Shown here: positions 12,493 to 27,647 of the stretch, piece after piece
How the letters are laid out: every line of letters begins with the position of its first letter
Numbering within the stretch: the stretch's first letter is position 1
IMG/VR virus record: IMGVR_UViG_3300042369_000253
Location: 1 to 40,967 of that record
Length of the DNA stretch: 40,967 bases
Source: a virus
Strand: one strand, 5' to 3'
Notes under the pieces: generated by a model
What the model saw: the letters and a program-made list of their open reading frames with translations, nothing else
Database searches by the model: none
Told to the model about the DNA's origin: nothing
Program-made: the position numbers and the translations under genes

Positions 12493-12500
12493 TATAAATA
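12493..12500 (+). promoter_or_regulatory. T4-type late promoter, start codon at +1
   Basis: A perfect TATAAATA (12493-12500) is followed by five bases and then ATG (12506). In T4 late promoters the octamer spans about -13 to -6, which puts +1 on the A of this ATG. Confidence 0.72.
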
Positions 12501-12505
12501 TCGAT

Positions 12506-12886
12506 ATGAAGAGTTTCACATCATTCATTCGAGAAAATAAAGAAAAGGAATCTAAAATACAACATTTTTTAGATTTTGCATCCCAATACCTCGATTTAGG
12601 CGAAAAACCTTCGGTTTCTATGGTAACAACCAGAGAACCTGGCATGACGACTGCTTTTTATGAACCTAAAACTGGCAATATAAAGATCTATGCAAAAGAT
12701 CGGGCAGTGTTCGACATATGCCGATCCGCAGCACACGAACTAGTTCATAGAAGACAACACAAGGACATAGAAAATCCCGAAGATCTGGATGGGTCTACTG
12801 GAAGTCCCCACGAAGATGAAGCAAACGCTGTTGCCGGTAGAATAGTACGGACATATGGGGAACAAAATCCAGAGTTTTACGAATGA
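12506..12886 (+). CDS. Putative virion zinc metallopeptidase with capsid-targeting leader
   Basis: This 126-aa protein has the leader MKSFTSFIREN, then SAAHELVHRRQ with HELVH at about 77-81, then GSTGSPHEDEANAVAGRIVR, where E103 or E105 would supply the third zinc ligand. The combination 'aHELvHlRQ ... tGSp-x-E-x-EANA-x-AG-x-x-x-R' is one I know from T4-like marine phages. The start at 12506 is set by the late promoter and by the leader; an in-frame ATG at 12464 lies upstream of the promoter. IRE at residues 8-10 fits the (L/I)xE cleavage pattern of T4 gp21. It is likely packed in the head and released into the host, by analogy with T4 internal proteins. Confidence 0.72.
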   Translation: MKSFTSFIRENKEKESKIQHFLDFASQYLDLGEKPSVSMVTTREPGMTTAFYEPKTGNIKIYAKDRAVFDICRSAAHELVHRRQHKDIENPEDLDGSTGSPHEDEANAVAGRIVRTYGEQNPEFYE

Positions 12887-13833
12887 AAGATATTAAATCA
12901 ATATTGTTTGAAATAGCAAAAAATAATGGAAAATCAAAAGATTTTCCAATGGGTAAGGTATATGATCCAGACGCAAAGGATCCAAATTCTATGGAATGGG
13001 ATCCGTTAAATAAAGATGGAACGAAAAAGCCATTAAATAGTTTTCAGTATAAGAAGTGGATTAAAAGCCAGGAGAAACCAAAACCTGATGTTTCAGAATC
13101 TTTACTTAAAAAATTAGCAATACCAGCTGCAATTATTGCAGGTGGTGCATTGGCAATACCTGCGGCGAAGACAATGGTTTCTGCTATCAAAGGAACTAAT
13201 GTTGTTGCTCCAACCCATCAGACTCCTATTGTAAAAACAGAAACACAAAAACCAAAAGCACAAACTACACCAATAGTAACCGCTGCTACATCAGAAACTC
13301 CAGAACATTTTCAAAATGAAAATATTAGAAGATTCTATGCAGGGATTGTGAATGCAGAACATCGTGGATCTGCTAAAAAATTGGGACTGACAACAGATCC
13401 ATTTCAACATCATGCAGATTTATATGTACGAACTAAAGGCGACTCTGCATCTTCTGCATATGGCCCTGCTCAATTAACAAGAAACACTGTGATGGATCAT
13501 ATGAAACGACATCCTGATTTGTTTAAAGGTCAAGAATCTTATGCAAAACAATTTGTTGACCAAGGAACAAGTATGTTGAAATCGGGCAGAATGCATCCTA
13601 CATTTGGTGGTGGTAAGGCAGGAACTCTATCTAGTGCAGAGCATCATGGGAATTATCAAAGATTAGCGACTGGCGTGATGAGATCAATGGCAAAAGACAT
13701 AAGTGTAGATTTAGAAAAACCTATGTCAGATGATGATCATTACAGATTGACTAAACGATGGAGAGGTGTGGGCCAGAAAGAAGATCCAGCATATTATACA
13801 GCACATAATGGAGCATATAGTACTACAAAATGA
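12883..13833 (+). CDS. Putative virion muramidase/transglycosylase-like protein
   Basis: This 316-aa protein begins MKDIKSILFEIAK, a leader with LFE as a possible prohead-protease site. A hydrophobic span lies at about 78-100 (LAIPAAIIAGGALAIPAAKTMV). From about 145 there is a lysozyme-like layout: FYAGIVNAEHRGS (candidate catalytic Glu159), then GDSASSAYGPAQLTRNTV (about 186-203), matching the 'S-x-x-GP-x-Q-x-T' element of lytic transglycosylases. The C-terminus DPAYYTAHNGAY could complete the site. A peptidoglycan-cutting enzyme carried in the virion for DNA entry is a reasonable inference; the fold match is by eye only. Confidence 0.6.
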   Translation: MKDIKSILFEIAKNNGKSKDFPMGKVYDPDAKDPNSMEWDPLNKDGTKKPLNSFQYKKWIKSQEKPKPDVSESLLKKLAIPAAIIAGGALAIPAAKTMVSAIKGTNVVAPTHQTPIVKTETQKPKAQTTPIVTAATSETPEHFQNENIRRFYAGIVNAEHRGSAKKLGLTTDPFQHHADLYVRTKGDSASSAYGPAQLTRNTVMDHMKRHPDLFKGQESYAKQFVDQGTSMLKSGRMHPTFGGGKAGTLSSAEHHGNYQRLATGVMRSMAKDISVDLEKPMSDDDHYRLTKRWRGVGQKEDPAYYTAHNGAYSTTK

Positions 13834-14813
13834 ATACTAGACAATTATTAATGGAACAATTGATGGAGTCTATTACAAAGCGTAATGGAGAAATTTATAC
13901 ATTACCAATTACTCGTAAGGGAGAATCATTACGGCCTAAACTAGATATAAGAGATCCTAGATCTCCAATAAAAATATCAAAGAAAACTTTGAATAGGTAT
14001 GATACCGCATTGAATGCACTACAACAAAGTAAACCCGACACAATTCAACGAGGCCGCGCAGATGAAAAATATCGCAAGGTAATAAAAAATATTGGAAGCA
14101 AAGAACGTTTTCGTGGTATCTATAGAGGAAAGATAAAGCGAGCATCGGATACACTCACTTATCATTTTAAGCCTTCGGGTGTCATTAGTAGCGGAAATCG
14201 AGCTAATCCTGAACTTCATTATTATCCACAACTGGGTCAACATTATACAGAAGCAGGCGAACATGTATATTCTTTTACAACACCACATGGGAGTGAAGGA
14301 AAAATATCAATGTCTCATGGGACGACTGGTCGTAAATCTAGCGAGAGAAGAAATGGGCATATGACAAAAACAGAAATACAATTTGATGTAGATTCTAGTA
14401 AAGCAAAAACTGGTAGACAAGGAAATAAAGCTGTTGGAATTTTTAGAAATGTATTGGCTGCTATAAAGCATCATTCTAAATCACATGATCCTGATGTTGT
14501 TACCTTTTCTGCGTCTGAAGATTTGTTCGGTCCTAGAAATACTCGCGTTAAACTATACAAATATTTAACAACTAAAATGAATAAAGTTGTAGGAAATAAA
14601 TATAGAGTATCTCATCATGAAGATCGACAAACGGGTCAATCTCCAGGCGATGGACCGCTAAACTTTACATTAGAACGAAAGAAAATAAGTGATCGGACCG
14701 CAAGAAGTTTTATTGCACAATTGGATGCAAACAGAGAAGAAGCAAGAAAAATAGCAAAAGGCAAGATCACGAAACCTATAAATACTAAAGAGAAAAAGGA
14801 GAAAACTAAATGA
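13830..14813 (+). CDS. Putative virion protein with GNAT-like domain, 327 aa
   Basis: The leader MNTRQLLMEQLMESI contains LME, again like a prohead-protease site. The second half has GNKAVGIFRNVLAAIKHHSKSHDPDVVTFSASE, then NTRVKLYKYLTTKMNKVVGNKYRV. This 'V-x-x-x-V-x-x-A-I...D-x-V-x-FSA...R-x-x-LY-x-x-x' layout is shared by T4-like phage proteins that I place near the GNAT acyltransferase fold. No acetyl-CoA loop (R-x-x-G-x-G/A) is clear, so activity is uncertain. It overlaps the previous gene as ATGA and its own 3' end carries the late promoter for the next gene. Confidence 0.58.
   Translation: MNTRQLLMEQLMESITKRNGEIYTLPITRKGESLRPKLDIRDPRSPIKISKKTLNRYDTALNALQQSKPDTIQRGRADEKYRKVIKNIGSKERFRGIYRGKIKRASDTLTYHFKPSGVISSGNRANPELHYYPQLGQHYTEAGEHVYSFTTPHGSEGKISMSHGTTGRKSSERRNGHMTKTEIQFDVDSSKAKTGRQGNKAVGIFRNVLAAIKHHSKSHDPDVVTFSASEDLFGPRNTRVKLYKYLTTKMNKVVGNKYRVSHHEDRQTGQSPGDGPLNFTLERKKISDRTARSFIAQLDANREEARKIAKGKITKPINTKEKKEKTK
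14777..14784 (+). promoter_or_regulatory. T4-type late promoter
   Basis: A perfect TATAAATA lies inside the 3' end of the upstream gene, 25 bp before the ATG at 14810. Unlike the leaderless cases, it leaves about a 20-nt leader with an AAGGAG ribosome site. Confidence 0.6.
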
Positions 14814-15079
14814 ATCCACGATCAGCAAAAGGAAATAAAAACACTAGCGCCTCACAGGCCGCCAGAGACGCAACATCGAATAGAAGAAATGGTGGTCAAG
14901 CACCAATTCAGCCTCCTGCGCAAGGAAATAATGCCATGGCTAGAGCAAAACAAGCAAGGGCTTCTTATAAGCAACAAGGAACTGGAACAAAACAGATTGA
15001 TCCATCCCAAAATGCAACAGATAGAGATCATGACAAGAGAATGCAAAAACGACAGCAAGACGCTCAACAAGGATATTAA
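14810..15079 (+). CDS. Disordered Gln/Asn/Arg/Ala-rich protein, 89 aa
   Basis: The whole protein is hydrophilic and low-complexity (SASQAARDATSNRRNGGQAPIQPPAQGNNAMARAKQARASYKQQ), with a strong net positive charge and no hydrophobic core. It is probably unstructured and could bind DNA or sit inside the head. A strong AAGGAG ribosome site 8 nt before the ATG and a late promoter suggest high expression. No family recognised. Confidence 0.6.
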   Translation: MNPRSAKGNKNTSASQAARDATSNRRNGGQAPIQPPAQGNNAMARAKQARASYKQQGTGTKQIDPSQNATDRDHDKRMQKRQQDAQQGY

Positions 15080-15081
15080 AT

Positions 15082-15384
15082 ATGCCTAATTATGGATTTA
15101 TATGTGACAACTGTGATCATCGATTTGATTGTTATTTGACTATGGATAATAGAAACAATCCATTGAAAGAATCATGTCCTGAATGTAAAAAGGCCGGTGG
15201 AGTAATAAAAGATTTGAATGGAATTAGATGTTCATTGAATTCTGATGCAACATTGACTCCAGACAAAGCAACTGGCGGAAAATGGTCTGAACTCATGACT
15301 CAAATGAAACGAGGAGTATCTAAACGATACCACACGAATTTAGATCAAGCAAGCAGTCAGACTGGACGATTATGGAAAGGTTAA
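15082..15384 (+). CDS. FmdB-type zinc-ribbon protein, 100 aa
   Basis: MPNYGFICDNCDHRFDCYL followed by PLKESCPECKKAGGVIKDL is the classical FmdB zinc-ribbon pattern (MPxYxFxCxxCxxxF ... CPxC). FmdB-like ribbons are frequent in phage late regions; their role is not established. The C-terminal half is polar (SDATLTPDKATGGKWSELMTQMKRGVSKRYHTN). An AAGGA site precedes the ATG. The last 13 bp overlap the next gene. Confidence 0.75.
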   Translation: MPNYGFICDNCDHRFDCYLTMDNRNNPLKESCPECKKAGGVIKDLNGIRCSLNSDATLTPDKATGGKWSELMTQMKRGVSKRYHTNLDQASSQTGRLWKG

Positions 15385-15752
15385 AAGAAGGAGCAACATT
15401 TTTTTCCAAGCTTGGGGGCGAAAGCGCCGCCGACTCTGACTCTGTTAGGTCTTTAGGTCAAGGAAGAGACTCTGCGAGTAGTGTAAAAGACCGTTGGATG
15501 ACTGCAATACGATATGGAGGAAAAGGCGCCTCTCCTTCTGCTCAATGGAATGATGGACAAAACGCTAAGGCTATGGTAACGGCAGCCTTTGCAGCTAAGG
15601 GAATTCCGGCATTAAAACGAGCAGGAAGAATACCATCAAAAACTGGTGGAGATTACTCTGCAATAGTAAAAAGACGCCAAAGACTCGCAGAATCTATAGC
15701 ATATATAAAGCAAAATATACAACAGTATAAATATAATATTAAAGGGAAATAA
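15372..15752 (+). CDS. Hypothetical virion-type protein, 126 aa
   Basis: No family recognised. The protein starts MERLKEGATFFSKLGGES, somewhat like the leaders of its neighbours but without a clear hydrophobic-x-Glu site. The centre is Ala/Gly/Ser-rich (AKAMVTAAFAAKGIPALKRAGRIPSKTGG) and the C-terminus is a basic helix (RRQRLAESIAYIKQNIQQYKYN). Its 3' end contains the late promoter of the next gene. Confidence 0.55.
   Translation: MERLKEGATFFSKLGGESAADSDSVRSLGQGRDSASSVKDRWMTAIRYGGKGASPSAQWNDGQNAKAMVTAAFAAKGIPALKRAGRIPSKTGGDYSAIVKRRQRLAESIAYIKQNIQQYKYNIKGK
15726..15733 (+). promoter_or_regulatory. T4-type late promoter
   Basis: A perfect TATAAATA in the 3' end of the upstream gene, 22 bp before the ATG at 15756, with AAAGGG as ribosome site in the leader. 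Confidence 0.6.
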
Positions 15753-15755
15753 TAC

Positions 15756-17015
15756 ATGAACAAGTTATATCTTTCTTGGCTCACACAACATCTCGATACC
15801 AATAAAACCAATAGAGAATTGGTAAATATAGCGGAAAAAGTTAATTCTGGTAAAAAATCAGAAGCCAAGGGTAAAAAGCCAGAGCCAAAGAAGGTAAAGG
15901 CAGAGAAGCAGACTGATGATCCATTCTTGTTAGGGTCTAATGATGGAGAAGAACAAGAACCAAAAGAACCAAAATCTAATAAAAAAAGTGAAGCGGCAAC
16001 GAAGCGTAACGTTGATGATCGTATTGAAGCTGAAAAAAATAAAGAGTCAGGAACAAATCCAGAAGATCTTGCGGCCGCTTTGCATGGAATACGTCATGCT
16101 TCGGAACTAGAACAAGCAATAGGATCTCCAGATTCTGTATTCAGATCACAAGAACGAGAACCAAGTAAGGGCACAGGAGCTCAATATAGAAAAACAGAAT
16201 CCCCAGAAGATGTAATGGCTAGAATGGTGCGAGAAGGATTTTTTGGTAACATGGCTGCAGGAGCTGGAAATTTGGCTGGAAAGGCCGCCGGAGGAATTGC
16301 TAAAGCAGGAGCTGGGGCAGTTAATATGGCAGACAAGGGAATCGTAGGAGCAGGAAAATTAGCAGGACAGGCTGGAGGAGCATTCAAGACAGGAATGGGT
16401 AGTAGTTTAGGAACAGCAGCAGACAAAATAAAGAGTGGGCCGATTGCACAAAAACTAGGTAATGTAGGAGGAGCAATCAAAGGAAAGGTAGGAGGAGCAA
16501 TCAAAGTTGTTGGTGGACTCACAAAACAAGTTTCATCCAATCCAACAGTTCGTGGATTGGCATCCAAGGGAGTCGATGCAATTAAAGCAAAACTAAATGA
16601 TACTGGTAGTAAACAAACTGGTATACCAGTACCTCCAGATGGAGGAGCTAAACCTGTTGCTGCTGGAGCTAAACCTGCGGCAGGTGGTGAATCTGCACCA
16701 GCTGGAGGAAATTCTTCCTCAAATACCAACACGGTAGGTCGAGATCAGACTAACTCAAACAATACCACAACCAACAATTATGGTGGTGGCGGCGCAGCAG
16801 GTGGCAAAGCAGCTCCACAACAGCAAGCTTCTGAATTGGGTACTGCTAGTGGAGATTCTGTAATTAGAGGTGGGGCAAGAGAAGCCTCTGGTGGAAGAGT
16901 TCCGGCTATTACAGGAAGACCTAGAATGAGTATGAACGAAGAAACCAAACCACAGAGCAATCTATCTCGTATAATGGAGATGAGAAATAGATTGTCTGTC
17001 AAATATGGGGATTGA
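15756..17015 (+). CDS. Ala/Gly-rich putative virion structural protein, 419 aa
   Basis: Three parts are visible: a charged Lys/Glu/Pro-rich N-terminal region (30-110), a central Gly/Ala repeat region (about 165-280) with units such as GNLAGKAAGGIAKAGAGAVN and GGAIKGKVGGAIKVVGG that form glycine-zipper-like amphipathic helices, and a Gly/Asn/Ser-rich tail (300-370). The C-terminal MEMRNRLSVKYGD may be a small folded end. Glycine-zipper segments can insert into or lie on membranes, so a role in DNA ejection is possible. The N-terminal AEKVNSGK is shared, at DNA level too, with the gene at 24679. No named family recognised. Confidence 0.62.
   Translation: MNKLYLSWLTQHLDTNKTNRELVNIAEKVNSGKKSEAKGKKPEPKKVKAEKQTDDPFLLGSNDGEEQEPKEPKSNKKSEAATKRNVDDRIEAEKNKESGTNPEDLAAALHGIRHASELEQAIGSPDSVFRSQEREPSKGTGAQYRKTESPEDVMARMVREGFFGNMAAGAGNLAGKAAGGIAKAGAGAVNMADKGIVGAGKLAGQAGGAFKTGMGSSLGTAADKIKSGPIAQKLGNVGGAIKGKVGGAIKVVGGLTKQVSSNPTVRGLASKGVDAIKAKLNDTGSKQTGIPVPPDGGAKPVAAGAKPAAGGESAPAGGNSSSNTNTVGRDQTNSNNTTTNNYGGGGAAGGKAAPQQQASELGTASGDSVIRGGAREASGGRVPAITGRPRMSMNEETKPQSNLSRIMEMRNRLSVKYGD
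15831..15850 (+). repeat. 20-bp direct repeat, copy 1
   Basis: The 20-mer gcggaaaaagttaattctgg is identical to 24712-24731. In both genes it is read in the same frame as AEKVNSG near the N-terminus. Confidence 0.7.
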
Positions 17016-17039
17016 CTTTTATTAAATTTATGGTATTAT
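17012..17039 (+). promoter_or_regulatory. Sigma70-type promoter of the exonuclease gene
   Basis: TTGACT (17012-17017), 16-nt spacer ending TTTATGG, TATTAT (17034-17039). The ATG at 17041 lies upstream of the expected +1, while the in-frame GTG at 17047 falls at it. The TTTATGGTAT block is shared with the promoter at 7334. Confidence 0.65.
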
Positions 17040-17040
17040 A

Positions 17041-17724
17041 ATGATCGTGTGTGGTAATTTTAATCATCTTGAATTGAATTTTGACCGTGTAGATCTCGAA
17101 AAAGAAGAGGTCAATGGTAAAAGATTTTATAAAACGCCTGATGGCATATTCCCATCTGTTACTACGGTCACAGGATGGGAAAAGAGAAACTTCTTTGCCG
17201 GGTGGAGAAAAAATAATCTAGAAGAATCCAAAAGAGTTTGTGCAAGAGGTAATAGATTACATTCTATGACCGAAAAATATCTACTAAATGATAAATTAAA
17301 CCTAGATGAATATAAAGAAGAGATAGACCTCTTTAATACATTAAAACCTGAGTTAGATAAGATAAAAAACATATATTGTTTAGAATATCCTCTATGGAGT
17401 AAAGTTCTTGGTCTAGCAGGAAGAGTTGATTGTATTGCAGAATATGACAAACAATTATCCATAATCGACTTCAAGGGAAGTACTAAAATCAAGAAAAAAG
17501 AACACATAGAAAATTATTTTCTACAAGCATCTGCATATGCTTTAATGTGGCAAGAACGTACTGGCATGAAGATTAAAGATATTAAAATCCTGATATCTAC
17601 CGAGTATGGAACGATTCAAGTGTTTGAAGAAAAGGTAATAGATCATGTGCCCCGACTCAGAGAAGTAATAATGAATTATAGAAGGGAAAATCCAAATGGT
17701 AATACTGAAACAATCAGACATTAA
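17041..17724 (+). CDS. PD-(D/E)xK exonuclease (Cas4/RecB/MGME1-like)
   Basis: The core reads GNRLHSMTEKYL (His-containing helix), EYPLWSKVLGLAGRVDCIAEYD (Asp of the motif about residue 127) and LSIIDFKGSTK (D-x-K), then ENYFLQASAYALMW (Q-x-x-x-Y). This is the full RecB/Cas4-type nuclease order and is closest, from memory, to MGME1-like exonucleases of T4-like marine phages. Expected role: single-strand end processing in recombination or host DNA breakdown. The start may be the GTG at 17047, which suits the promoter better than the ATG at 17041. It has its own sigma70-type promoter in a module otherwise driven by late promoters. Confidence 0.82.
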   Translation: MIVCGNFNHLELNFDRVDLEKEEVNGKRFYKTPDGIFPSVTTVTGWEKRNFFAGWRKNNLEESKRVCARGNRLHSMTEKYLLNDKLNLDEYKEEIDLFNTLKPELDKIKNIYCLEYPLWSKVLGLAGRVDCIAEYDKQLSIIDFKGSTKIKKKEHIENYFLQASAYALMWQERTGMKIKDIKILISTEYGTIQVFEEKVIDHVPRLREVIMNYRRENPNGNTETIRH

Positions 17725-18064: not shown

Positions 18065-18090
18065 GTAGATATTACATAGATCTACATCGT

Positions 18091-18098
18091 TATAAATA
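18091..18098 (+). promoter_or_regulatory. T4-type late promoter, start codon at +1
   Basis: TATAAATA followed by CTATA and then ATG at 18104, the same octamer-N5-ATG geometry as at 12493. The extended TATAAATACTAT is the T4 late consensus. Confidence 0.78.
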
Positions 18099-18103
18099 CT
18101 ATA

Positions 18104-19255
18104 ATGATCAAATCTTTTATATCCTTCCTAACGGAAGCGGCTAAAGTTCATGCGACGACAGGTCATCTAGATCACGTTGAAGCTTTACTATATCAAGATC
18201 CGAGCAAAGCTTTTAGGCATTTTGATAATGCCGTAAATAGATTTCAAAACAAACCAGCAGAGGGAAAGATCTCCCAAAAGGCAGATGGTGGCACTTCGGT
18301 TAAGATTGCTCGAATGCCAGATGGTACTCCAGCAGTAGGATATAAAACAGGAGAGTGGTTTACAACCCATCAACAGATCGAAGATCACGCAAAGAAGAAT
18401 AAAGCACCACATTATAAAAAGATATTTTCGCCTCTTTTAAATATGGTTTCTGGTATGAAGAAACTAAAGAAAGGAACAGCGATTCAGGCTGATATTATCC
18501 ACCAGTCTGATACCCCAACTGAGCTTCCAGGAATATCTCAACCAAATACTATAAAGTATAAAATTGAGAAAGGCCATAAACTAGTATTGGCAGCTCACTC
18601 TCAATATAGAGTAAAGAAGAGTGGAGAGTTGAAGAAAACTTCTAGTCATCCTGATGTCGGTATGCTGTCTGCGGAAGGAGTTCATGCACCAGAGCTGGCA
18701 ATGAAGGATAATATCAAATTACAATTACATCCTCAAAGAACACAAGCAATATCAAACGAACTAGCATCTGCTAAAAAAGCAATGACTCCCAAAGTAAGAA
18801 AATTTGCCTCGGGAGTCAGAGGATTGCATCCAAAATTTACACAATTCTTTGATCAATATCATAGTCACGCTTCTCGTACTAGTGGTGCAAGATCTGTAGA
18901 AGGCCTTAGAGATTATATGGATGGATTTATGAGTAAGAAGGCTCAGAGTTCATTGAAACCCGCAACACAAACAGCACTACGAACAACTATTGGTGGCATT
19001 ATTGATACTCATGCTCATCATTTTGGTCCACTCTTCGACGCACACAATGCAATGATCCGAGCAAAGCATCATACATTAGATCAGATGCGAGAGCATGAAG
19101 GTCAGTTTCAATTACAAACTCATGGCGGAGAAGAACACGAAGGAATGGTATCGTCTATAGGAACGCCAGGTGTGGATGAACATCAAGCAAAGTTTGTACG
19201 AGAAGGTCCAGCAGGATTTCCAAAGAAAAATAATGATAATCCAAGATTTAAATAA
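18104..19255 (+). CDS. KxDG covalent-nucleotidyltransferase-like protein with capsid-targeting leader
   Basis: This 383-aa protein starts MIKSFISFLTEAAK, with LTE as a possible prohead-protease site after residue 11. It continues GHLDHVEALLY, then KISQKADGGTSVKI with K59-A60-D61-G62, the lysine motif of the ligase/capping superfamily, then GEWFTTHQQIEDH and KGTAIQADIIHQ (about 127-134, like motif III/IV strands). Phage relatives in T4-like viruses (I believe DUF6267) show 'K-x-DG-x-P ... K-x-G-x-x ... IQGDLL'. The His-rich C-terminal half (HAHHFGPLFDAHNAMIRAKHH) is unassigned. The product is probably packaged in the head; substrate unknown. Confidence 0.62.
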   Translation: MIKSFISFLTEAAKVHATTGHLDHVEALLYQDPSKAFRHFDNAVNRFQNKPAEGKISQKADGGTSVKIARMPDGTPAVGYKTGEWFTTHQQIEDHAKKNKAPHYKKIFSPLLNMVSGMKKLKKGTAIQADIIHQSDTPTELPGISQPNTIKYKIEKGHKLVLAAHSQYRVKKSGELKKTSSHPDVGMLSAEGVHAPELAMKDNIKLQLHPQRTQAISNELASAKKAMTPKVRKFASGVRGLHPKFTQFFDQYHSHASRTSGARSVEGLRDYMDGFMSKKAQSSLKPATQTALRTTIGGIIDTHAHHFGPLFDAHNAMIRAKHHTLDQMREHEGQFQLQTHGGEEHEGMVSSIGTPGVDEHQAKFVREGPAGFPKKNNDNPRFK

Positions 19256-19266
19256 AAGGAACATAA

Positions 19267-22086
19267 ATGAATTATACGTCTCTTAAAGAATCTTTGAAAA
19301 CTCCAGCATCTAGAGCTTTTTTAGTAAGTGGTGCTTTCAATCCACCAACCCGTGCACATGAAGATATGATATCAAAGGCAGCCGATTTTGCTTCAAAGAA
19401 ACATACTCATTTTTATGTCGGATCATCTTCAGCATCACAAGAAAAAGATGATGCACCTCTTACACATGATCAAAAAATATCTGTATTGTCAAAAATTCAT
19501 GAACCATTATCCAAAAAACATAAAGGATTAGCGTTCGGAATACTTCCAAAAGAAAATGCAATATCTCCATTTCATCAGATAACTCATCTAATAGAAACCG
19601 GCGGTCATAAAGATATAACAGTAGGATTGGGATCAGATCAAATGGATGGTCCTACTTCTTTACGAAAACAATTGAAATCTCATATTAAAAAATGGGGAGG
19701 ATTTCTTGGATCTGATCGTAAGAAGGTGCACAAGATTCGTCTTTCTTTTAAACAATTAGGAGAACCTAGACAAGAAGGCGATACTACAAGAGAAGAGGAA
19801 TTAAAACGAATCGCAACAGGAAATATTACAGGAGTAAAGAGCGGAAAATTACGGAAAGCAGTCGCCTCTGGGGATATTGAATTAGCAAAAGCAATGATGC
19901 CACTTGGTGTAAATTCGAGTGAATATCATAAACTAATTCAATCTCAGCAGGCAAAAGTAAAAGCAATGCCGAAGAAAAAGAAGACAATAAAAGAAGATTA
20001 CAATACTTGGTTTTGTGCTGAAGAATTTATGGAATATAAATTAGAGAATGTGTTGGAGTTGTTGTTAGAAGCAAAACCAAAAGAAGAACAAAGAAGATAT
20101 CAAAACGAGAATAAAAGAAAGCAAAGAGCAACCGACGAAGCTACTATGCAATCTAATCCATATTCTGGAAAGATTATGGTTGTTCGAGATGCTAGAGACA
20201 ATCTTATGATTGTCGATAAGAATTCTTATAATCCAGATAAGCATGAGATTGTGACTGCTCCAGATAAAATGAGCGAGGGAGCAGCATCTAAAGTTCTAGA
20301 TGATCCAGATTTCGTGAATACGAAAACTTCTATAAAACTTTTTGGTAAAATTCAAGGAGCAGACGATGCAAAAGAACCAAAAGAAAAGAAACAAGAACAA
20401 CAACAAGAACAGCAACCACAAGAACAACAGCAGCCAGTAGTTCCACCAAGACCCGAGCCAACAACGGGAAAGGGTTCTCAGTTTCCAGATTCAGATCATT
20501 CCGCAACAGATCTAGAAGCAGGAATTGCAGCTGCCCATGGATTATTAGGTGGAGTTTCATTAGAAGATCAGGTCAAGATGGGAATGCTTGGGCCAAAAGA
20601 GTATGAGAAGGTCGCTACAAGTCAGACTCTATTAGCTGCAGGTCAAAGATCGTTAATGACTACCATGCAAACATTGAAAATGGATTATCCTGATTCAAAT
20701 TTCGAAGCTTTCCATTATGGAAGAAAGAAAGATCAACCTCTTAGTAAATTCTATGTTGAAAGAGGAGCACGAGATAATACACCAAAATCTGATATAATTT
20801 TTAGAGATAAAAATACAGGAATGATTGTGGGTGCTTCTGTTAAGAGTGGTCCTTCACAACTCACGTCTGGAAAGGCTCAAGGAGAAGCACAAGCTTTGGT
20901 CATGACTGCCATGGAAACTATGGATCAAGGACAGAAGAATCCAGAGTTTACTAAAAAGGTTGATGGCTTATTAGATCAGTTGAACAAACTGGCGAAGTCA
21001 GGAAAAACTCAAGCAGGCCCAGTAGATCCATATCAAAAAGGTGGAGAAAAAGAAGGACAAGACACAGAAATATTACGCTATGAAAAGTTACATGAAAAAT
21101 GTAAGGAATTATTGCGAGATATTCTTACCGAAAATAAATCATTCAAGAAAGCATTAGTTTATGAAGCATTGACTGGTGCTAGAAAATTTGATACAGGGAA
21201 AAAGGGAGTGGTTAGTCCTGCAGTTCCTCAATACGTCTTATCAACAAATAAAGACGGAACTGGTGCTAGTATGACACAAATAAATGAAAATTATCTAGAT
21301 AAACTAGTAGATCAAATAAATCAAATACAAATACGATTTAAAACTAGTAGTGTAGCAGGTAAGGAGAATCAAGCAAAAGGAAAAGATAAACAATATTCAT
21401 ATTGGTCTGTGATTGCTCTTGGATCTAACAAACAATTGAATGAATATTTCAAACACAATGCTATATTACGAGAATTGGTTGGAGATTCACAAAATACAGA
21501 AGAACCTAACATTGACGATGTTATACAGTTCCTCAAAAAAGATATCGGCGGAGATCCACAAAAATGGATGCAATTTCTTGAAGTAGAAGCAGAATCTGTA
21601 AATATATCTCCAGTAGATTTTCAAACTATAGCATCAAAAGAACATGATAATGTAAATATTATAGTGATAAACGGCGTAGAAGTAGAAATTCCAGTAGAAA
21701 AGGACGTAGACTACAATGATATGTCTGATCTGCAAAATGACGCAGAAGATAATCAGGAAATGGAAGCACAACAAGCTGCAGAATCTAAAGGCAAACAAGA
21801 AATAAACGAATCTTATATTTCATACGCACTAAAATTTCTTGCAGAAAGAAAAAAAGTAGACAAAGCAAGCGGAAGAGATTATAAAGCAGAATACAAATGG
21901 CAAGGAACAACCAAGCAAAAGAAAAGACGAGCAAAAAGAAATGCCGCAAGAGCATTGTTAACAAAAATGGGTAGAGTTCATAAAGGTGATGGTAAAGATG
22001 TAGATCACAAGAACCACAACACTCATGACAATTCATTGGATAATTTAAAAGTTATGAGTGCAGGAAAAAATAGATCAAAGAAGTGA
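19267..22086 (+). CDS. Multidomain virion protein: HxGH-type nucleotidyltransferase, PD-(D/E)xK-like region, HNH nuclease (939 aa)
   Basis: Domain 1 (about 15-240) has FLVSGAFNPPTRAHEDMI, the N-P-x-T-x-x-H variant of the HxGH adenylyl/cytidylyltransferase motif. A Gln/Pro/Glu linker (370-400) leads to a middle region with KSDIIFRDKNTGMIVGASVKSG (about 507-527), which matches the D...x-V-K core of PD-(D/E)xK nucleases. The C-terminus (845-939) has KKRRAKRNAAR and DVDHKNHNTHDNSLDNLKVM, an HNH motif. Domain borders carry leader-like helices ending in LLLE (about 266) and FLAE (about 859), and the N-terminus has SLKE. These resemble T4 gp21 sites, so the protein may be a polyprotein matured in the prohead; that is inference. 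RBS AAAGGAACATAA. Confidence 0.7.
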   Translation: MNYTSLKESLKTPASRAFLVSGAFNPPTRAHEDMISKAADFASKKHTHFYVGSSSASQEKDDAPLTHDQKISVLSKIHEPLSKKHKGLAFGILPKENAISPFHQITHLIETGGHKDITVGLGSDQMDGPTSLRKQLKSHIKKWGGFLGSDRKKVHKIRLSFKQLGEPRQEGDTTREEELKRIATGNITGVKSGKLRKAVASGDIELAKAMMPLGVNSSEYHKLIQSQQAKVKAMPKKKKTIKEDYNTWFCAEEFMEYKLENVLELLLEAKPKEEQRRYQNENKRKQRATDEATMQSNPYSGKIMVVRDARDNLMIVDKNSYNPDKHEIVTAPDKMSEGAASKVLDDPDFVNTKTSIKLFGKIQGADDAKEPKEKKQEQQQEQQPQEQQQPVVPPRPEPTTGKGSQFPDSDHSATDLEAGIAAAHGLLGGVSLEDQVKMGMLGPKEYEKVATSQTLLAAGQRSLMTTMQTLKMDYPDSNFEAFHYGRKKDQPLSKFYVERGARDNTPKSDIIFRDKNTGMIVGASVKSGPSQLTSGKAQGEAQALVMTAMETMDQGQKNPEFTKKVDGLLDQLNKLAKSGKTQAGPVDPYQKGGEKEGQDTEILRYEKLHEKCKELLRDILTENKSFKKALVYEALTGARKFDTGKKGVVSPAVPQYVLSTNKDGTGASMTQINENYLDKLVDQINQIQIRFKTSSVAGKENQAKGKDKQYSYWSVIALGSNKQLNEYFKHNAILRELVGDSQNTEEPNIDDVIQFLKKDIGGDPQKWMQFLEVEAESVNISPVDFQTIASKEHDNVNIIVINGVEVEIPVEKDVDYNDMSDLQNDAEDNQEMEAQQAAESKGKQEINESYISYALKFLAERKKVDKASGRDYKAEYKWQGTTKQKKRRAKRNAARALLTKMGRVHKGDGKDVDHKNHNTHDNSLDNLKVMSAGKNRSKK

Positions 22087-22092
22087 GGATTT

Positions 22093-22725: not shown

Positions 22726-23243
22726 AAAATATGAAGCCTACAAAGTCTATCGAGGATCTTTCCAAAAAACATAAAGTTCCTATTGGTGAATTAAAAACAC
22801 AATTGAAAATGGGAATAGGAGTCGAACATGAGCATACTAAATCTAAATCGTTAGCAAAAACTATAGCTTTACAACATATAGCAGAATTGCCTAATTATTA
22901 TACCAGATTAAAGAAAATAGAATCGGTAAAGGAAGACTGGGCTGTTATGGATAGACAGAATCGAGGAGATTATATTGACGGTGCAGAACCAGATCCGATG
23001 ACTGGAGTTCCAGGTCCAATGAAATTTAAGACCAAACAAGAAGCCTTACAGGCCGCAAAACAGGTAGCTCCAGGCAATAAAAATGTAATTCCTGATGTAT
23101 TTTCTGAATTAAAAGATAAAAAACCACTTCCTCTTGATCCTAACCCAGAAGAATCTAAGAAATTAAAGGAATTCTTCTATAATAGACAATTGGCAAGAAT
23201 CAATGAATCGTACGGAATCCGAAAGAAAAATAAGACTAAATAG
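22722..23243 (+). CDS. DUF5661-like protein, 173 aa
   Basis: Residues 8-65 (SIEDLSKKHKVPIGELKTQLKMG, IGVEHEHTKSKSLAKTIALQHIAELPNYYTRLKKIE) match the pattern I know as DUF5661: 'la-x-kH...l-x-x-Ql-x-x-G-x-x-vE-x-EHT...A-x-x-ia-x-dHl-x-E-x-p-x-YY-x-x-L-x-x-mE'. The remainder has a Pro/Gly-rich segment (DPMTGVPGPMKF) and ends KEFFYNRQLARINESYGIRKKNKTK. The INESYG ending resembles a leader-like cleavage segment. Function unknown. Downstream gene starts after AGATAGGAGACAAA. Confidence 0.65.
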   Translation: MKNMKPTKSIEDLSKKHKVPIGELKTQLKMGIGVEHEHTKSKSLAKTIALQHIAELPNYYTRLKKIESVKEDWAVMDRQNRGDYIDGAEPDPMTGVPGPMKFKTKQEALQAAKQVAPGNKNVIPDVFSELKDKKPLPLDPNPEESKKLKEFFYNRQLARINESYGIRKKNKTK

Positions 23244-23257
23244 AGATAGGAGACAAA

Positions 23258-24301
23258 ATGAAAAGATTTAAAGAAATTTACCATAAGACATTAAAAGAAG
23301 AATACACAGAAGGTGGCAGCGTATTTAACGGATATAGCGATTCCGTCAGAAGGACTGCCCAAAGTGATTTTGGAGTCCATCGAGTGGGTGAAGGCGACTC
23401 CATTCATAGATTGAATGCCTTTATCAATAAATTCCTTGGTGGTACTTATATCGACCCAGAAGCTGCGGTGACCGAGCTTCGAAGTAGATTGAATCATGCA
23501 GGCCTAGATTTTGTCTTTGACGGTAAAAAGATAACACTACATCCTGGAGTCAATAGTTTCCCTGCCAAATTATATGGAGAAGTCTTTGGAACGACTCCGA
23601 CTACGGATCTCTCAAAGGGATTCGATAAGGGTATGGATCTGCCTGGATTGAATCTCGTAATCGATGTTACCTATGACGAAACTAGTTGTATGTACAGTAT
23701 GTCTGGTAAATTGATTCCAACACCAAAAACATCTCCAACAACACCAATGAAAGAAGGAGCATTTGGGAAGATGGCAGGAACGTTTCTTGGCAATATGCTT
23801 CTTCCAGGGGTTGGTGGAGTTATCGGTGGTATGCTAGGAAGTGCTGCGGGTGATGCTGTAAGTAGTGCAACAGCAAACGATGCTCAGGCTAATGGTAGAG
23901 CATCTGCTATGGGTGAAAATGGAATGAAGCGCAAGAAGAAAATAAAGAAGACGTCTGAAGATGCTTTGGCAGTTGCTATGAGTGAAGAAAAGATAGAACA
24001 CGTTTCTGATTTTCCTAGAAAAGTAGAACACTTCATCATGCGTGATAAAGACATGAAAGATAAAGTTTTAGTTCCTGTATTCAATCATTTATTATCCAAG
24101 AAGAAAAAGGGAAAACTGACATTAGATGATGCTAGAAAAGAATTATATTTCGTCGTCAATTCTGCTTTACGAAAAATGAAAGATACGGTTGAGGGTGATG
24201 AAAAGAGAGAAGTTACTCTTACACAAAAAGAAAAGGGTAGAGTGGTTGGAGACTTGGTGAGAAATTTTAAAAAATACATGACGACTCATGCTAAAAAGTA
24301 A
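23258..24301 (+). CDS. Capsid-targeted protein with glycine-zipper segment, 347 aa
   Basis: The leader MKRFKEIYHKTLKEEYTEGG contains YTE and KEE as candidate prohead-protease sites. A folded domain follows (about 40-165). Residues about 170-210 are a glycine zipper (AFGKMAGTFLGNMLLPGVGGVIGGMLGSAAGDAVSS), a membrane-active type of helix. The last 110 residues are basic and helical (KRKKKIKKTSEDAL, RNFKKYMTTHAKK). A strong TAGGAG site precedes the ATG. An internal virion protein acting at the host membrane during DNA entry would explain leader and zipper together, but no homolog is recognised. Confidence 0.6.
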   Translation: MKRFKEIYHKTLKEEYTEGGSVFNGYSDSVRRTAQSDFGVHRVGEGDSIHRLNAFINKFLGGTYIDPEAAVTELRSRLNHAGLDFVFDGKKITLHPGVNSFPAKLYGEVFGTTPTTDLSKGFDKGMDLPGLNLVIDVTYDETSCMYSMSGKLIPTPKTSPTTPMKEGAFGKMAGTFLGNMLLPGVGGVIGGMLGSAAGDAVSSATANDAQANGRASAMGENGMKRKKKIKKTSEDALAVAMSEEKIEHVSDFPRKVEHFIMRDKDMKDKVLVPVFNHLLSKKKKGKLTLDDARKELYFVVNSALRKMKDTVEGDEKREVTLTQKEKGRVVGDLVRNFKKYMTTHAKK

Positions 24302-24304
24302 TAG

Positions 24305-24682
24305 ATGAAGCAAAAAATAACTCCTGATACCTTTTTATTATATGCAACCAAGATGTATGACAATCCGTCTTGTTCGGGTATAGAGGAGTTTTATGAGGAC
24401 ATACATCGAATAAAGTACATAAAGCGTCTGCTCATAAGGTTTAAACGGGGAGGAAGATTGAAAGAACGATTGATTTTAAATCATATCATCACTCTACAAA
24501 ATATATTTGGAGCAGAAGCTTGCACTAGAATGTTATTTTTTAAAATGACTCCAGATCTATATTCTATGATTATTTCATTTTTACAGTATCTACAATACTT
24601 ACCAGAACAAATACCAGAAGTTTCATTGAAGAGTATACGCTCAGATCATAGAATAGACACAATACTAGGAAATCTCAAATGA
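24305..24682 (+). CDS. Conserved T4-like phage protein, 125 aa
   Basis: The sequence YATKMYDNPSCSGIEEFYEDIHRIKYIKRLLIRF, then LKERLILNHIITLQNIFGAEACTRMLFFKM, fits a family I recall from T4-like cyanophage late regions (labelled DUF7207 in recent annotations), with the signature 'yDNp-x-c...EF-x-eDl-x-R-x-KYlKRL...LrERLiLNHii-x-l-x-NvFG'. It is all-helical and basic. Function is unknown; neighbours in other genomes are structural genes. It overlaps the next gene as ATGA. Confidence 0.68.
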   Translation: MKQKITPDTFLLYATKMYDNPSCSGIEEFYEDIHRIKYIKRLLIRFKRGGRLKERLILNHIITLQNIFGAEACTRMLFFKMTPDLYSMIISFLQYLQYLPEQIPEVSLKSIRSDHRIDTILGNLK

Positions 24683-25284
24683 TCAATCCATACCATCCGA
24701 TAATTAAAAAAGCGGAAAAAGTTAATTCTGGAAAGATTATATCTAGTAATCATACTTCAACATTAGCCTATAGAAGAGTTCCAAACTCAAAGGATTTAAA
24801 TAAGGTAATCAGTTCCTTTACCGTGTATAAATTCATCAAGTCTATAACTCAACATTTTTCTCAAACTAATGCATTCTCTTTAGGAGTAATAGATGCCTAT
24901 GGAAGATATCTGAAAGATCCTGAAGGACTAATAACTCCATACGATAGATTGATAATAAACCTGAAGGTTTTATTGGCTATGATTCCAAATCCATCTATAA
25001 AAGCTAAATTGAATTATCTTGTTACTGGCATAGGACTATTAGCAGAAGATTCGGAACAATTGGGTGCAGATCCTCATTATGTGTTCACCGAAATTCTAGA
25101 TTACCTATTAGAACAAGGATTAGATCTATATTCAATCCTAGACGAAGAAGGAATGTCTGTGGGTGGCGGAGGGATTGCAGGAGTCACAGACATATATCCA
25201 TCAAGTGGTGGTGATTATGGAAATACTGTAGTTCATAGAAAAAATATTGTTGGAAAAATGCTCAAAAGAAGGAGACGACGATGA
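24679..25284 (+). CDS. Hypothetical protein, 201 aa
   Basis: No family recognised. A mostly helical domain (about 40-165: VISSFTVYKFIKSITQHF, YDRLIINLKVLLAMIPNPSIKAKLNYLVTGIGLLAEDSEQL) is followed by a Gly-rich stretch (SVGGGGIAGVTDIYPSSGGDYG) and a polybasic end (KMLKRRRRR). The N-terminal AEKVNSGK is encoded by the same 20-bp sequence as in the gene at 15756. Its late position and conserved neighbours suggest a structural or assembly role. Confidence 0.6.
   Translation: MINPYHPIIKKAEKVNSGKIISSNHTSTLAYRRVPNSKDLNKVISSFTVYKFIKSITQHFSQTNAFSLGVIDAYGRYLKDPEGLITPYDRLIINLKVLLAMIPNPSIKAKLNYLVTGIGLLAEDSEQLGADPHYVFTEILDYLLEQGLDLYSILDEEGMSVGGGGIAGVTDIYPSSGGDYGNTVVHRKNIVGKMLKRRRRR
24712..24731 (+). repeat. 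20-bp direct repeat, copy 2
   Basis: Identical to 15831-15850 and read in the same frame (AEKVNSG), 33 nt into the gene. Confidence 0.7.
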
Positions 25285-25718
25285 TACCTACGGAATTAAT
25301 TACTTTAATTGCTGGATCTGCAACAGGATTCATTTTTCGTCACATGGCAGAGAACAGAAAGAATGCACAAGAGAACTTCCAACGTGCAATGGATTCTCAA
25401 AAACAAACTGAAGTCTCTAGAAATGCTGCCGTACAGAGAGTGCCTATCGATGTAGGTAGAGGAGTCAGACAAACCATAGTGCTTGCAATTCTTTTTGGAA
25501 CTATTCTTGCACCGTTTGTACTTCCTTTCTTTGGCATACCAACAATCGTTGAAGTAGAATATACTTCTCCAGAATGGTTGTTTGGTCTTATTCCATCTAG
25601 TAACACTAAACTGTTTCAAACAATCAACGGATATCTTTTCACAACAGAGAATCGTCAAATTCTAGTTTCCATCGTAGGTTTCTACTTTGGAAGCGCAGCT
25701 GCATCAAACAAGTCATAA
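25281..25718 (+). CDS. Membrane protein, candidate holin, 145 aa
   Basis: The N-terminal helix ELITLIAGSATGFIFRHMAENRK is followed by a polar helix rich in Gln, then a long span TIVLAILFGTILAPFVLPFFGIPTIV (about 65-90) and a last span ILVSIVGFYFGSAAASNK (about 124-141). Two or three spans with short polar ends fit holin-type proteins, and the next two genes (a basic N-terminally amphipathic protein and a lipoprotein) would suit a lysis group. No direct holin family match is recognised, so this is a context-based proposal. Confidence 0.55.
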   Translation: MIPTELITLIAGSATGFIFRHMAENRKNAQENFQRAMDSQKQTEVSRNAAVQRVPIDVGRGVRQTIVLAILFGTILAPFVLPFFGIPTIVEVEYTSPEWLFGLIPSSNTKLFQTINGYLFTTENRQILVSIVGFYFGSAAASNKS

Positions 25719-25728
25719 GGAGAATCGT

Positions 25729-25932
25729 ATGGAAAAGTTAAAACAAATTTGGAGTGTCGTTTGGTCACATATCGTATCTTTTGGTAAACTTTTAAAGAAA
25801 TTGTTTACCGAAGAAGGTGTCGCAGAGCAAAAGGCACAGATAACGAAAACTGTCCAAGAAAAGAAAGAGAAGAGTAAGATTCGTCTTCGCAAGAAGAGTG
25901 CAAAGAAAAGTACTAAGAAAAACAAGAAATAA
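25729..25932 (+). CDS. Small highly basic protein, 67 aa
   Basis: The start at 25729 follows AAGGAGAATCGT, a strong ribosome site; an in-frame ATG at 25687 lies inside the previous gene. The first 25 residues (MEKLKQIWSVVWSHIVSFGKLLKKLF) form an amphipathic helix with Trp residues, able to lie on a membrane, and the last 25 are nearly all Lys/Arg/Ser (KIRLRKKSAKKSTKKNKK). Unknown family; placed between the membrane protein and the lipoprotein. Confidence 0.6.
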   Translation: MEKLKQIWSVVWSHIVSFGKLLKKLFTEEGVAEQKAQITKTVQEKKEKSKIRLRKKSAKKSTKKNKK

Positions 25933-25937
25933 TTCTT

Positions 25938-26456
25938 ATGAAATTCTTTACTATTATACTCTTAGCATTGATGGTTGGTTGTTCTCCGTCTATTCAGATG
26001 CCAAGTCTCACCAAGCAAGCACCTGATGTCCTGACTAACGACACAGAGGTTGTTGTTGCTCCTGGAGTTCGTGGAACTATTAACAAAGGATCTTTGATAC
26101 AAATTCCTGAAGAAGATAAAGTGGATGTTGTACTACAAGAAAAGATTCAAACTGTTGTGAATGGTAAAACAGTAGAAATACCAAAAAACACAAAGGTAAC
26201 TATTCCTGCTAACACATACCTTAAGACCACAGAATCAACGGATATTCGTCTTTCAGAAGGTGCAGATGTTACTCTACGCAAAGGTACAGTCATCACCATC
26301 TCAAAGATCAACTGGTATGCTATTCTATTCTATATGATGTTAATAGGTGGTGCGATTGCGTACTGGATCTATTCTCGGAATAAAGATATAGATAAAGACA
26401 ATGATGGTTATGTTGATGAAGAAAAACTACAGCAGTTGAACGAAAGCGAAAGATGA
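25938..26456 (+). CDS. Lipoprotein with C-terminal membrane span, 172 aa
   Basis: The N-terminus MKFFTIILLALMVGC is a type-II signal peptide with lipobox MVGC (Cys15). A beta-repeat middle follows: TEVVVAPGVRGTINKGSLIQIPEE, KTVEIPKNTKVTIPANTYLK, DVTLRKGTVITI, which looks like repeated short strands. A transmembrane span lies at about 123-142 (WYAILFYMMLIGGAIAYWIYS), then an acidic segment DIDKDNDGYVDEEK, which matches the calcium-binding loop D-x-D-x-D-G of EF-hand or dockerin repeats. Lipid anchor at one end and membrane span at the other could bridge two membranes as spanins do, but the size and Ca-binding loop are atypical. Confidence 0.65.
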   Translation: MKFFTIILLALMVGCSPSIQMPSLTKQAPDVLTNDTEVVVAPGVRGTINKGSLIQIPEEDKVDVVLQEKIQTVVNGKTVEIPKNTKVTIPANTYLKTTESTDIRLSEGADVTLRKGTVITISKINWYAILFYMMLIGGAIAYWIYSRNKDIDKDNDGYVDEEKLQQLNESER

Positions 26457-26836
26457 TGTATGAGTATTCTGCTACTCTAATAAAGATTGTTGACGGTGAT
26501 ACTGTCGATGTTCTTATTGATCTTGGTTTTAATACCACGAAAAAAGAACGAGTAAGATTGTTGGGTATTGATACTCCAGAATCTGCCACAAAAGATCTAG
26601 CAGAAAAAAAACTAGGTATTGAAGCAAAAGAATATATCACACAATGGTTCACGAAGAATACTCCATTTCGTTTGCAAACAACCAAGGATGATAAATATGG
26701 AAGAATCCTTGGTGTGTTTACTGGATTAGATGGAAAGACTTTGAATACTCGTTTAGTAGATGAAGGATATGCATGGGCGTATGATGGTGGAACTAAGAAG
26801 AAAGATTTTGCTCTTTTATTAGAGAAACGAAAATGA
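26453..26836 (+). CDS. Staphylococcal-nuclease-type endonuclease (SNase), 127 aa
   Basis: The sequence ATLIKIVDGDTVDVLIDLG, then RVRLLGIDTPES and KYGRILGVF, is the full thermonuclease pattern. R35 and E43 line up with the catalytic Arg35 and Glu43 of staphylococcal nuclease, and R84 with Arg87; Asp14 and Asp40-type calcium ligands (VDGDTV, GIDTPE) are present. The C-terminal NTRLVDEGYAWAYDG is typical. No signal peptide is visible, so it acts in the cell or is packaged. It overlaps both neighbours as ATGA. Likely role: degradation of host DNA or RNA; the precise target is inferred. Confidence 0.9.
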   Translation: MMYEYSATLIKIVDGDTVDVLIDLGFNTTKKERVRLLGIDTPESATKDLAEKKLGIEAKEYITQWFTKNTPFRLQTTKDDKYGRILGVFTGLDGKTLNTRLVDEGYAWAYDGGTKKKDFALLLEKRK

Positions 26837-27279
26837 AATCATTTAAAGAATATCTAACCGAAGATCTACGTGATTGGTTCAGTAAAAGTGACCCAGATGG
26901 AGACTGGAAACGAATAAATTCAAAAGGTGAAGCGGTTGGTCCTTGCGCAAGGGAAGAAGGAGAACCTAAACCTAAATGTATGTCAAAGAAGAAACGAGCA
27001 TCTTTAACTAAAAAAGAAAGAGCTGCAGCGGTTCGTGCTAAAAGAAAACATGATCCAGATGCAGATAGATCTGGATCTCCTATAAACGTTTCAAATTATG
27101 GAAAAGGTAAAATAAGTGAAGAAATTCTACAAGAAAAAAATATACCAACCAGTCCAGAAAAATGGAGTCAAGCAAAGGCATTAGCTAGATCTAAATTTAA
27201 GGTGTATCCTTCTGCCTATGCAAATGGTTGGGCTGCTAAAAAGTACAAAGCAATGGGTGGCGGATGGGAAACTGAATGA
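26833..27279 (+). CDS. DUF5872-like basic protein with capsid-targeting leader, 148 aa
   Basis: The leader MKSFKEYLTEDL (LTE at 8-10) is followed by GPCAREEGEPKPKCMSKKKRASLTKKERAAAVRAKRKHDPDADRSG, which matches the pattern I know as DUF5872 from phages and giant viruses. A second motif, SPEKWSQAKALARSKFKVYPSAYANGWAAKKYKAMGGGW, follows. The protein is strongly basic, suited to DNA or RNA contact inside the head. Its first 19 nt are identical to those of the next gene. Confidence 0.78.
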   Translation: MKSFKEYLTEDLRDWFSKSDPDGDWKRINSKGEAVGPCAREEGEPKPKCMSKKKRASLTKKERAAAVRAKRKHDPDADRSGSPINVSNYGKGKISEEILQEKNIPTSPEKWSQAKALARSKFKVYPSAYANGWAAKKYKAMGGGWETE

Positions 27280-27647
27280 AATCATTTAAAGAATTTACAG
27301 AATCTTGTTGGAGTGGCTACAAGGCTGTAGGTACAAAACGTAAAGGTAGTCGTGTAGTTCCTAACTGTGTTAGTATGAACGAAACGGCCGCATGGACACG
27401 CAAAGAGGGAAAGAACCCCGAAGGTGGTCTGAATGCAAAGGGTGTTGCGTCTTATCGTGCAGAAAATCCTGGAAGTAAACTAAAGACAGCAGTTACTACC
27501 CCACCATCTAAATTAAAGAAGGGCTCTAAAGCAGCAAAAAGAAGAAAGTCCTTTTGTGCTAGAATGGGTGGAATGCGTGGTCCAATGAAGGACGAAAACG
27601 GAAAACCGACACGCAAGGCTTTATCTTTGCGCAAGTGGAACTGTTAG
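27276..27647 (+). CDS. DUF6321-like basic protein with capsid-targeting leader, 123 aa
   Basis: The leader MKSFKEFTES (FTE) precedes NETAAWTRKEGKNPEGGLNAKGVASYRAENPGSKLKTAVTTPPSKLKKGSKAAKRRKSFCARMGGM and ends in SLRKWNC, the pattern I know as DUF6321, conserved in phages and giant viruses. The charge is very positive. It probably travels with packaged DNA, like the gene before it; the function of the domain is unknown. The stop codon overlaps the convergent RuvC-like gene by 4 bp, so the two operons meet tail to tail with no spacer. Confidence 0.8.
   Translation: MKSFKEFTESCWSGYKAVGTKRKGSRVVPNCVSMNETAAWTRKEGKNPEGGLNAKGVASYRAENPGSKLKTAVTTPPSKLKKGSKAAKRRKSFCARMGGMRGPMKDENGKPTRKALSLRKWNC

Follow-up and report, generated by a model that had tools for sequence, protein, structure and literature searches.

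Bacteriophage T4 directs proteins into its head by means of a short N-terminal capsid-targeting sequence (CTS), which was established on internal protein IPIII and which IPI and IPII are inferred to share (PMC9026906). By mutagenesis of IPIII, residues 4 and 7 were found to matter chiefly for targeting and residues 8 and 10 for processing, the prohead protease gp21 cuts after L/I-x-E, and the CTS has already been proposed as a general route of protein loading (PMC9026906). This report concerns leaders of the same type on several proteins encoded in the virus fragment IMGVR_UViG_3300042369_000253, whose whole length of 40,967 bases, with 57 genes, is called the window below; its proteins are named by the first coordinate of their genes. 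These leaders very probably represent a T4-type capsid-targeting system with several proteins as its cargo, a reading to which we give a probability of about 0.88. Replication genes place the source phage with the marine T4-like myoviruses; its UvsX is about 57% identical to those of pelagiphage HTVC008M, Methylophilales phage Melnitz and cyanophages.

The T4 internal proteins IPI, IPII and IPIII and the window proteins agree in leader length, in the fixed positions 4, 7, 8 and 10, in the L/I-x-E site and in having unrelated bodies, and the leaders themselves are close (MKTYQEFIAEA and MKTFKEFT... in T4; MKSFKEYLTE and MKSFKEFTES in the window). They differ in that the cargo of the window and its relatives is larger, more often enzymatic and not homologous to the T4 bodies, and in that the relatives also retain tags inside fused proteins. 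T4 Alt is a packaged enzyme, an ADP-ribosyltransferase, with a short N-terminal propeptide (7 residues) removed by gp21, and one tagged protein from IMG/VR correspondingly contains an ART-PolyVal domain; however, the leader of Alt, MELITELFDE, does not belong to the MKxFxxF type (score -7.9 on the matrix described below), and no Alt homologue was seen in the window. Enzymes found in CsCl-purified cyanophage particles, namely the NMNAT/cytidylyltransferase, SAM hydrolase and APH-like kinase of S-CREM2 and the NMNAT of S-SCSM1, are also leader-bearing, whereas the window's own nucleotidyltransferase, 19267, has no canonical leader. The words leader, targeting and N-terminal are not used in the S-CREM2 paper (PMC10665884). 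The ejection proteins of SPN3US-like giant phages are likewise described as a head-packaged, prohead-protease-processed and ejected set.

Leaders in the window and in related phages

The first-pass annotation had listed nine proteins that begin with an amphipathic leader running into hydrophobic-x-Glu. All of the motifs it named are present at their positions, but the list itself stands only in part: four proteins carry a canonical leader, the convincing members number four to six, and 13830, 12045 (minus strand) and 19267 are weak. The strict regular expression M-x2/3-[FLIYM]-xx-[FYLI]-[LIMF]-x-E is matched by 4 of the 57 window genes (12506, 12883, 18104 and 26833); shuffling of the N-termini gives an expectation of 0.13, and four matches were not reached in any of 2000 shuffles. 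These four share the spacing M..[F/I]..[F/Y/I][L/I].E, with hydrophobic or aromatic residues at positions 4 and 7 and a gp21-type L/I-x-E closing the leader; in 18104 one additional residue after the methionine shifts all positions by one. Proteins 27276, in which F4 and F7 are also present, and 23258 (MKRFKEIYHKTLKE then E) possess the first half of the leader only and are without Glu at position 10. T4 IPI (MKTFKEFTSTTTPVSTITE then A) likewise has only the first half, and the two are regarded as IPI-like variants. An L/I-x-E is found at shifted places in 23258 and 13830. The weak leaders are LLME/QLME in 13830, MNLKEYYKE in 12045 and MNYTSLKE in 19267.

The bodies behind these leaders were claimed to be mutually unrelated, and this was borne out in Pfam and PHROG, where they have no family in common. 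Clear assignments are confined to DUF6267 in 18104, DUF6321 in 27276 and HNH at the C-terminus of 19267. Protein 12883, described at first as muramidase-like, matches no Pfam or PHROG family, and that label was dropped.

A leader model was built from other phages. A degenerate DNA pattern for M-K-[ST]-F-K-x-F-[LIVMF]-x-E retrieved at least 120 stretches from IMG/VR, giving 132 leader open reading frames (ORFs) with 81 distinct bodies, and a position-weight matrix was trained on the 81 non-redundant proteins, with the window, T4 and isolates excluded. The matrix is biased to the pattern that collected its training set and favours the MKxFKxF form. Such a leader-profile scan had been proposed in the first-pass annotation, whose proteins took ranks 1-6, 10 and 12 of the 523 ATG frames in the window: 26833, 18104, 12506, 27276, 12045 (minus strand) and 12883 lead, followed by 23258 at rank 10 and 13830 at rank 12. 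Protein 12045 reaches rank 5 only with a one-residue deletion allowed. Scores of 6 or more are attained by four window genes, with 0.04 expected. Among 1,580 ATG frames of the T4 genome the same matrix placed ipII, ipIII and ipI second to fourth. The first rank in T4 was taken by gp61.1 (L130, 18966-19130, minus strand; 54 residues, MKTFKEFIKED...), which is accordingly a predicted, uncharacterised T4 internal protein.

Because of the pattern bias of the matrix, the DUF6267 family was fetched by its body and not by its leader, the best 80 of at least 589 relatives being kept. Hydrophobic-x-E stands immediately before the body in 75 of the 75 relatives scored from these. In an alignment of 50 leaders (49 fetched by body patterns, and 18104), position 4 is F in 40, L in 9 and Y in 1; position 7 is Y in 26 and F in 21; position 8 is L in 30, I in 19 and M in 1; and position 10 is E in all 50, while positions 2, 3, 5, 6, 9 and 11 are variable. 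The fixed positions are those known from the mutagenesis of T4 IPIII. Ten different codons are used at position 8, four at position 7, and both GAA and GAG at position 10; this free variation indicates that selection acts on the peptide. Two members of the family, S-SZBM1 gp141 and S-SM1_189, are leaderless, so that the leader behaves as a removable module. A SAM-lyase-like family, also fetched by body only, bears the canonical leader in 49 of 59 cases and a slightly altered one in 3 more; the remaining 7 modules are embedded in longer proteins without a leader and have I-D-E at the same place. The claim of a T4-like targeting leader on unrelated proteins is thus upheld by the recovery of the T4 internal proteins, by the conservation of four positions, and by the protease and particle data given below.

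Leader proteins in virions

The S-CREM2 virion comprises 52 detected proteins of 219 (PMC10665884). Six S-CREM2 proteins match the strict expression, namely gp6 (SAM hydrolase), gp13, gp14 (kinase), gp136, gp154 (cytidylyltransferase) and gp175, and five of them are in the virion list (Fisher p=0.003). In S-SM1 the cytidyltransferase T4-GC190 takes rank 1 among 1,730 frames, and it was reported in the virion (PMC3037559); only this statement in the text of the paper was used, as GenBank product names reflect the proteomics only partly. The NMNAT SSCSM1_91 of S-SCSM1, rank 2 of 1,987 frames, is labelled a virion protein. In S-SZBM1 the virion list includes the cytidylyltransferase gp140, which bears a leader, but not the adjoining leaderless gp141.

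Two window bodies have counterparts in particles: the body of 26833 is contained in S-CREM2 gp160 and that of 27276 in S-CREM2 gp137, and the virion list includes both of these S-CREM2 proteins. The 27276 body stands directly after a canonical leader in L083 (MKSFKQFLEE then SAAWQRK) and L035 (MLTFQEFITE then ATPAWQRK), and in other contigs it forms the end of a long fused protein. Two further virion proteins show leader-like stretches in unusual places. S-CREM2 gp12, a virion-detected nuclease annotated as Cas9 (L001, 7704-10313, minus strand), has RFASFMAE then AAV about 17 residues in, which would mean that the start is misplaced or that the tag is internal. SSCSM1_93 (L221, 29627-29836), a virion protein of 70 residues, ends in the leader-like KRTFKEFLEYIE, and the homologous stretch is the start of the long S-SZBM1 gp194.

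Several results weigh against a capsid-targeting system. S-CREM2 gp175 (55 residues), SSCSM1_30 (rank 1 of 1,987 frames in S-SCSM1) and S-SZBM1 gp191 and gp192, the best leaders of that phage, are absent from the respective virion lists, the S-SZBM1 list being short (30 proteins); none of the three strict matches in S-SZBM1 is in its list. No mature N-terminus has been reported for leader proteins. The window lacks head genes, and nothing in it matches PF03420, the family of the T4 gp21 protease; 27276 has no clear L/I-x-E near its leader. The undetected leader proteins are small, and gp191 and SSCSM1_30 belong to the same family and lie beside terminase genes; such proteins may belong to the core and be destroyed at maturation, or shallow proteomics may have missed them. 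Given the mixed detection across S-CREM2, S-SM1, S-SCSM1 and S-SZBM1, the tag predicts virion proteins well, not perfectly.

Processing, mechanism and alternative explanations

A match to PF03420 (S77, gp21-type) is encoded in 12 of 26 leader-bearing records, 11 of them above the Pfam cut-off. All five leader-bearing records of at least 100 kb have one, that of G021 (110 kb) at E=2e-7 lying below the cut-off. Cleavage sites beyond the first 20 residues were counted post hoc. The first-pass set without 19267 contains 3 L/I-x-E against 9.4 expected by shuffling (P=0.016), and the other window genes contain 111 against 89.8; the tagged IMG/VR set has 71 against 89.4. For the S-CREM2 leader proteins alone (7 against 10.2) depletion is not significant, and DUF6267 proteins without a leader likewise have few sites (2 against 4.9). 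Cleavage-site depletion is therefore taken as supporting evidence only.

In the capsid-targeting model, the first ten or so leader residues, hydrophobic or aromatic at 4 and 7, would bind the prohead core during head assembly and thereby bring the protein behind them inside the prohead. A gp21-type (S77) protease would then cut after L/I-x-Glu and leave the mature protein in the head, from which it would probably enter the next host along with the DNA. The bodies would be interchangeable cargo. A predicted RNA-ligase-like enzyme, an HExxH peptidase and basic proteins would most likely act in the first minutes of infection, against host defences or on host metabolism, and this role is the least certain part of the explanation. 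Packaging of the canonical members is likely because of the tag; core binding, cleavage and ejection in the source phage we infer by analogy, cleavage and ejection being carried over from T4.

The leader might instead mark parts of the prohead core or scaffold that are degraded at maturation, like T4 gp67 and gp68, so that not all tagged proteins would be delivered cargo. The commonest tagged family, 24 of the 132 listed IMG/VR leader ORFs, would suit this explanation: its proteins are about 106 residues long, start MKSFKQFISESVNISGDF (MKSFKQFISESVNISGDFNGNLYINS...), are encoded near terminase genes in S-SZBM1 and S-SCSM1 and, as L007 (S-SZBM1 gp191) and L222 (SSCSM1_30), occur in neither virion list. 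S-CREM2 gp137 (13 L/I-x-E against 5.2) and gp160 (4 against 0.8) are moreover rich in cleavage sites, as is the scaffold gp144 (15 against 5.1). However, enzymes (SAM lyase, ADP-ribosyltransferase, HD, acetyltransferase) make up many of the tagged bodies and have fewer internal sites than shuffled sequences, as counted above, and several tagged proteins persist in mature virions. This explanation is unlikely.

It is quite improbable that the leader has no targeting role and is just an amphipathic helix, or a domain common to these N-termini, serving membrane contact or oligomerisation. The pattern is indeed short and amphipathic, and the leaderless gp141 and S-SM1_189 indicate that it is dispensable for the fold; against this stand its near identity to the proven T4 CTS with the same four conserved positions and invariant Glu, its enrichment among S-CREM2 virion proteins, and the presence of gp140 but not its leaderless neighbour in S-SZBM1 particles. 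Hardly credible at all is the reading that the stretch acts as nucleic acid, being a promoter, ribosome site or packaging site at the gene's 5' end; it was rejected on the codon variety at positions 7, 8 and 10. The leader does lie nearly always at a gene start, and the T4 late-promoter-like TATAAATA occurs at 12493-12500 and 18091-18098, starting 13 nucleotides before the ATG of both 12506 and 18104. Yet leaders also occur inside fused proteins, and TATAAATA is found upstream of only 1 of 131 leader genes, compared with 44 of 687 other ORFs; it is thus not enriched, a result probably due to the position of most leader genes within operons. This late-promoter test speaks neither for nor against packaging. 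Neither 12506 nor 18104 has a clear Shine-Dalgarno sequence, and TATAAATA, if used, would imply a nearly leaderless mRNA.

Cargo, fused proteins and significance

Pfam domains on the 81 tagged IMG/VR bodies include SAM lyase, CTP_transf_like, ART-PolyVal, HD, acetyltransferases, a methyltransferase and a lytic transglycolase-like domain. The window proteins are collected in Table 1. No close relatives of 12883 or 13830 were found in the IMG/VR search.

Table 1. Leader proteins and leader-like segments of the window (aa, amino acids)
Feature	Coordinates	Strand	Body and remarks
126-aa protein, leader MKSFTSFIRE then N (codons 12506-12535)	12506..12886	+	HExxH (HELVH) metallopeptidase-like body, read from sequence; weak phrog_2439 match
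316-aa protein, leader MKDIKSILFE then I (12883-12912)	12883..13833	+	Body family none (Pfam/PHROG); hydrophobic stretch near residues 75-95; sole L/I-x-E is that of the leader
Very basic protein of 327 aa (net charge +33) with weak leader MNTRQLLME then QLME then S	13830..14813	+	Only two L/I-x-E sites, both within the first 13 residues
383-aa DUF6267 protein, leader MIKSFISFLTE then A (18104-18136)	18104..19255	+	Pfam PF19782 E=6.9e-12; sole L/I-x-E in leader; motif I KxDG at residues 59-62
939-aa fused protein without canonical N-terminal leader	19267..22086	+	
Internal leader-like segment MEYKLENVLELLLE then AK, residues 255-268 of the 939-aa protein	20029..20070	+	Junction of parts 1 and 2
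FLAE then RKKVDKASGRDY in the 939-aa protein	21835..21846	+	L-x-E right ahead of the HNH-bearing C-terminal part
347-aa protein, extended IPI-like leader MKRFKEIYHKTLKE then EYTE then G	23258..24301	+	Homologue HTVC008M gp139, N-terminus MKSFKDFQ; L/I-x-E sites only within the first 14 residues
Basic protein of 148 aa with the window's best leader, MKSFKEYLTE then DLRDWF (26833-26862)	26833..27279	+	Second site ILQE then KN, ahead of second module
123-aa very basic protein (+22), IPI-like leader MKSFKEFTES	27276..27647	+	DUF6321 body, Pfam PF19846 E=2.6e-25
135-aa protein, weak shortened leader MNLKEYYKE	12045..12452	-	P3 not L/I

DUF6267 (18104; family in L138-L220) looks like an RNA/DNA-ligase-type nucleotidyltransferase, judging from a predicted structure with which a KxDG motif agrees. 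A single-sequence search with 18104 found no relatives, a family alignment being needed, and DUF6267 has no sequence match in the PDB. An AlphaFold model of 18104 from four sequences was poor (pLDDT 47), and the relative L141 was therefore modelled with 50 sequences (pLDDT 85.6). In structure comparison of the L141 model, ligases fill 42 of the top 43 rows, the best at Z 7.8 with a root-mean-square deviation of 3.8 over 184 residues, a level too low on its own; Foldseek matches have E > 0.05. Motif I, KxDG with the nucleophilic Lys, reads VKWDG in the DUF6267 consensus and QKADGG from residue 58 in 18104, after manual realignment of the gap placement by MAFFT. Going by phage counter-defence in general, an RNA-ligase-like enzyme in the head could mend host tRNA that defence nucleases have cut, and cargo of the NMNAT-like kind could replenish NAD.

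The fused protein 19267 consists of a cytidylyltransferase/NMNAT-like N-terminus, a middle part related to HTVC008M gp126, in which a PD-(D/E)xK-like nuclease motif was read by eye, and a C-terminal HNH part with a phrog_4590 match at residues 870-938. Two of these three parts match separate genes in HTVC008M (gp130 and gp126), and the junctions carry the leader-like LELLLE and FLAE. Intact leaders are found in mid-protein in S-SZBM1 gp194 (TYREFIAE at residue 540 of 707) and also in L025, L032, L046, L093 and L126. This arrangement suggests that fused leader proteins may be packaged polyproteins separated by the head protease. More tentatively, it is possible that marine T4-like phages use the CTS and L/I-x-E as a general cargo code, in which fused modules, those of 19267 included, are each preceded by L/I-x-E and the protease would sort and then dice a defence-countering toolkit in the head (RNA-ligase-like repair, NAD-related nucleotidyltransferases, SAM lyase and nucleases). 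Besides the leaders in mid-protein, the I-D-E ahead of all seven embedded SAM-lyase-like modules speaks for such a code.

Two neighbouring genes were also recorded. Immediately 5' of the tagged gene 26833, and overlapping it, lies a Staphylococcal-nuclease-like protein without a leader (26453-26836; IVDGDTVDVLID). The minus strand encodes, at 28203-28955, a protein that may be a secreted serine protease: its N-terminus resembles that of a lipoprotein, and it has trypsin-like motifs (TAGHC ... GDSGGG).

The kind of system is known. In the literature search, exact leader strings (MKTFKQF and similar) were not found, and 'capsid targeting sequence' and 'cyanophage' hardly co-occur; new within the literature searched are how widely the system occurs among T4-like phages of aquatic habitats, how it agrees with the virion proteomes of cyanophages, and the processing sites inside proteins. 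For most genes of marine T4-like phages no function is known, and a tag of ten residues that can be read from sequence would flag those proteins that travel in the particle and are active ahead of all phage gene expression. The tag occurs across many uncultured aquatic phages and on cyanophage particle proteins. It would offer a common explanation for enzymes that several groups have found in cyanophage virions, until now just 'virion-associated', and it supplies a candidate list of early-infection effectors and anti-defence proteins.

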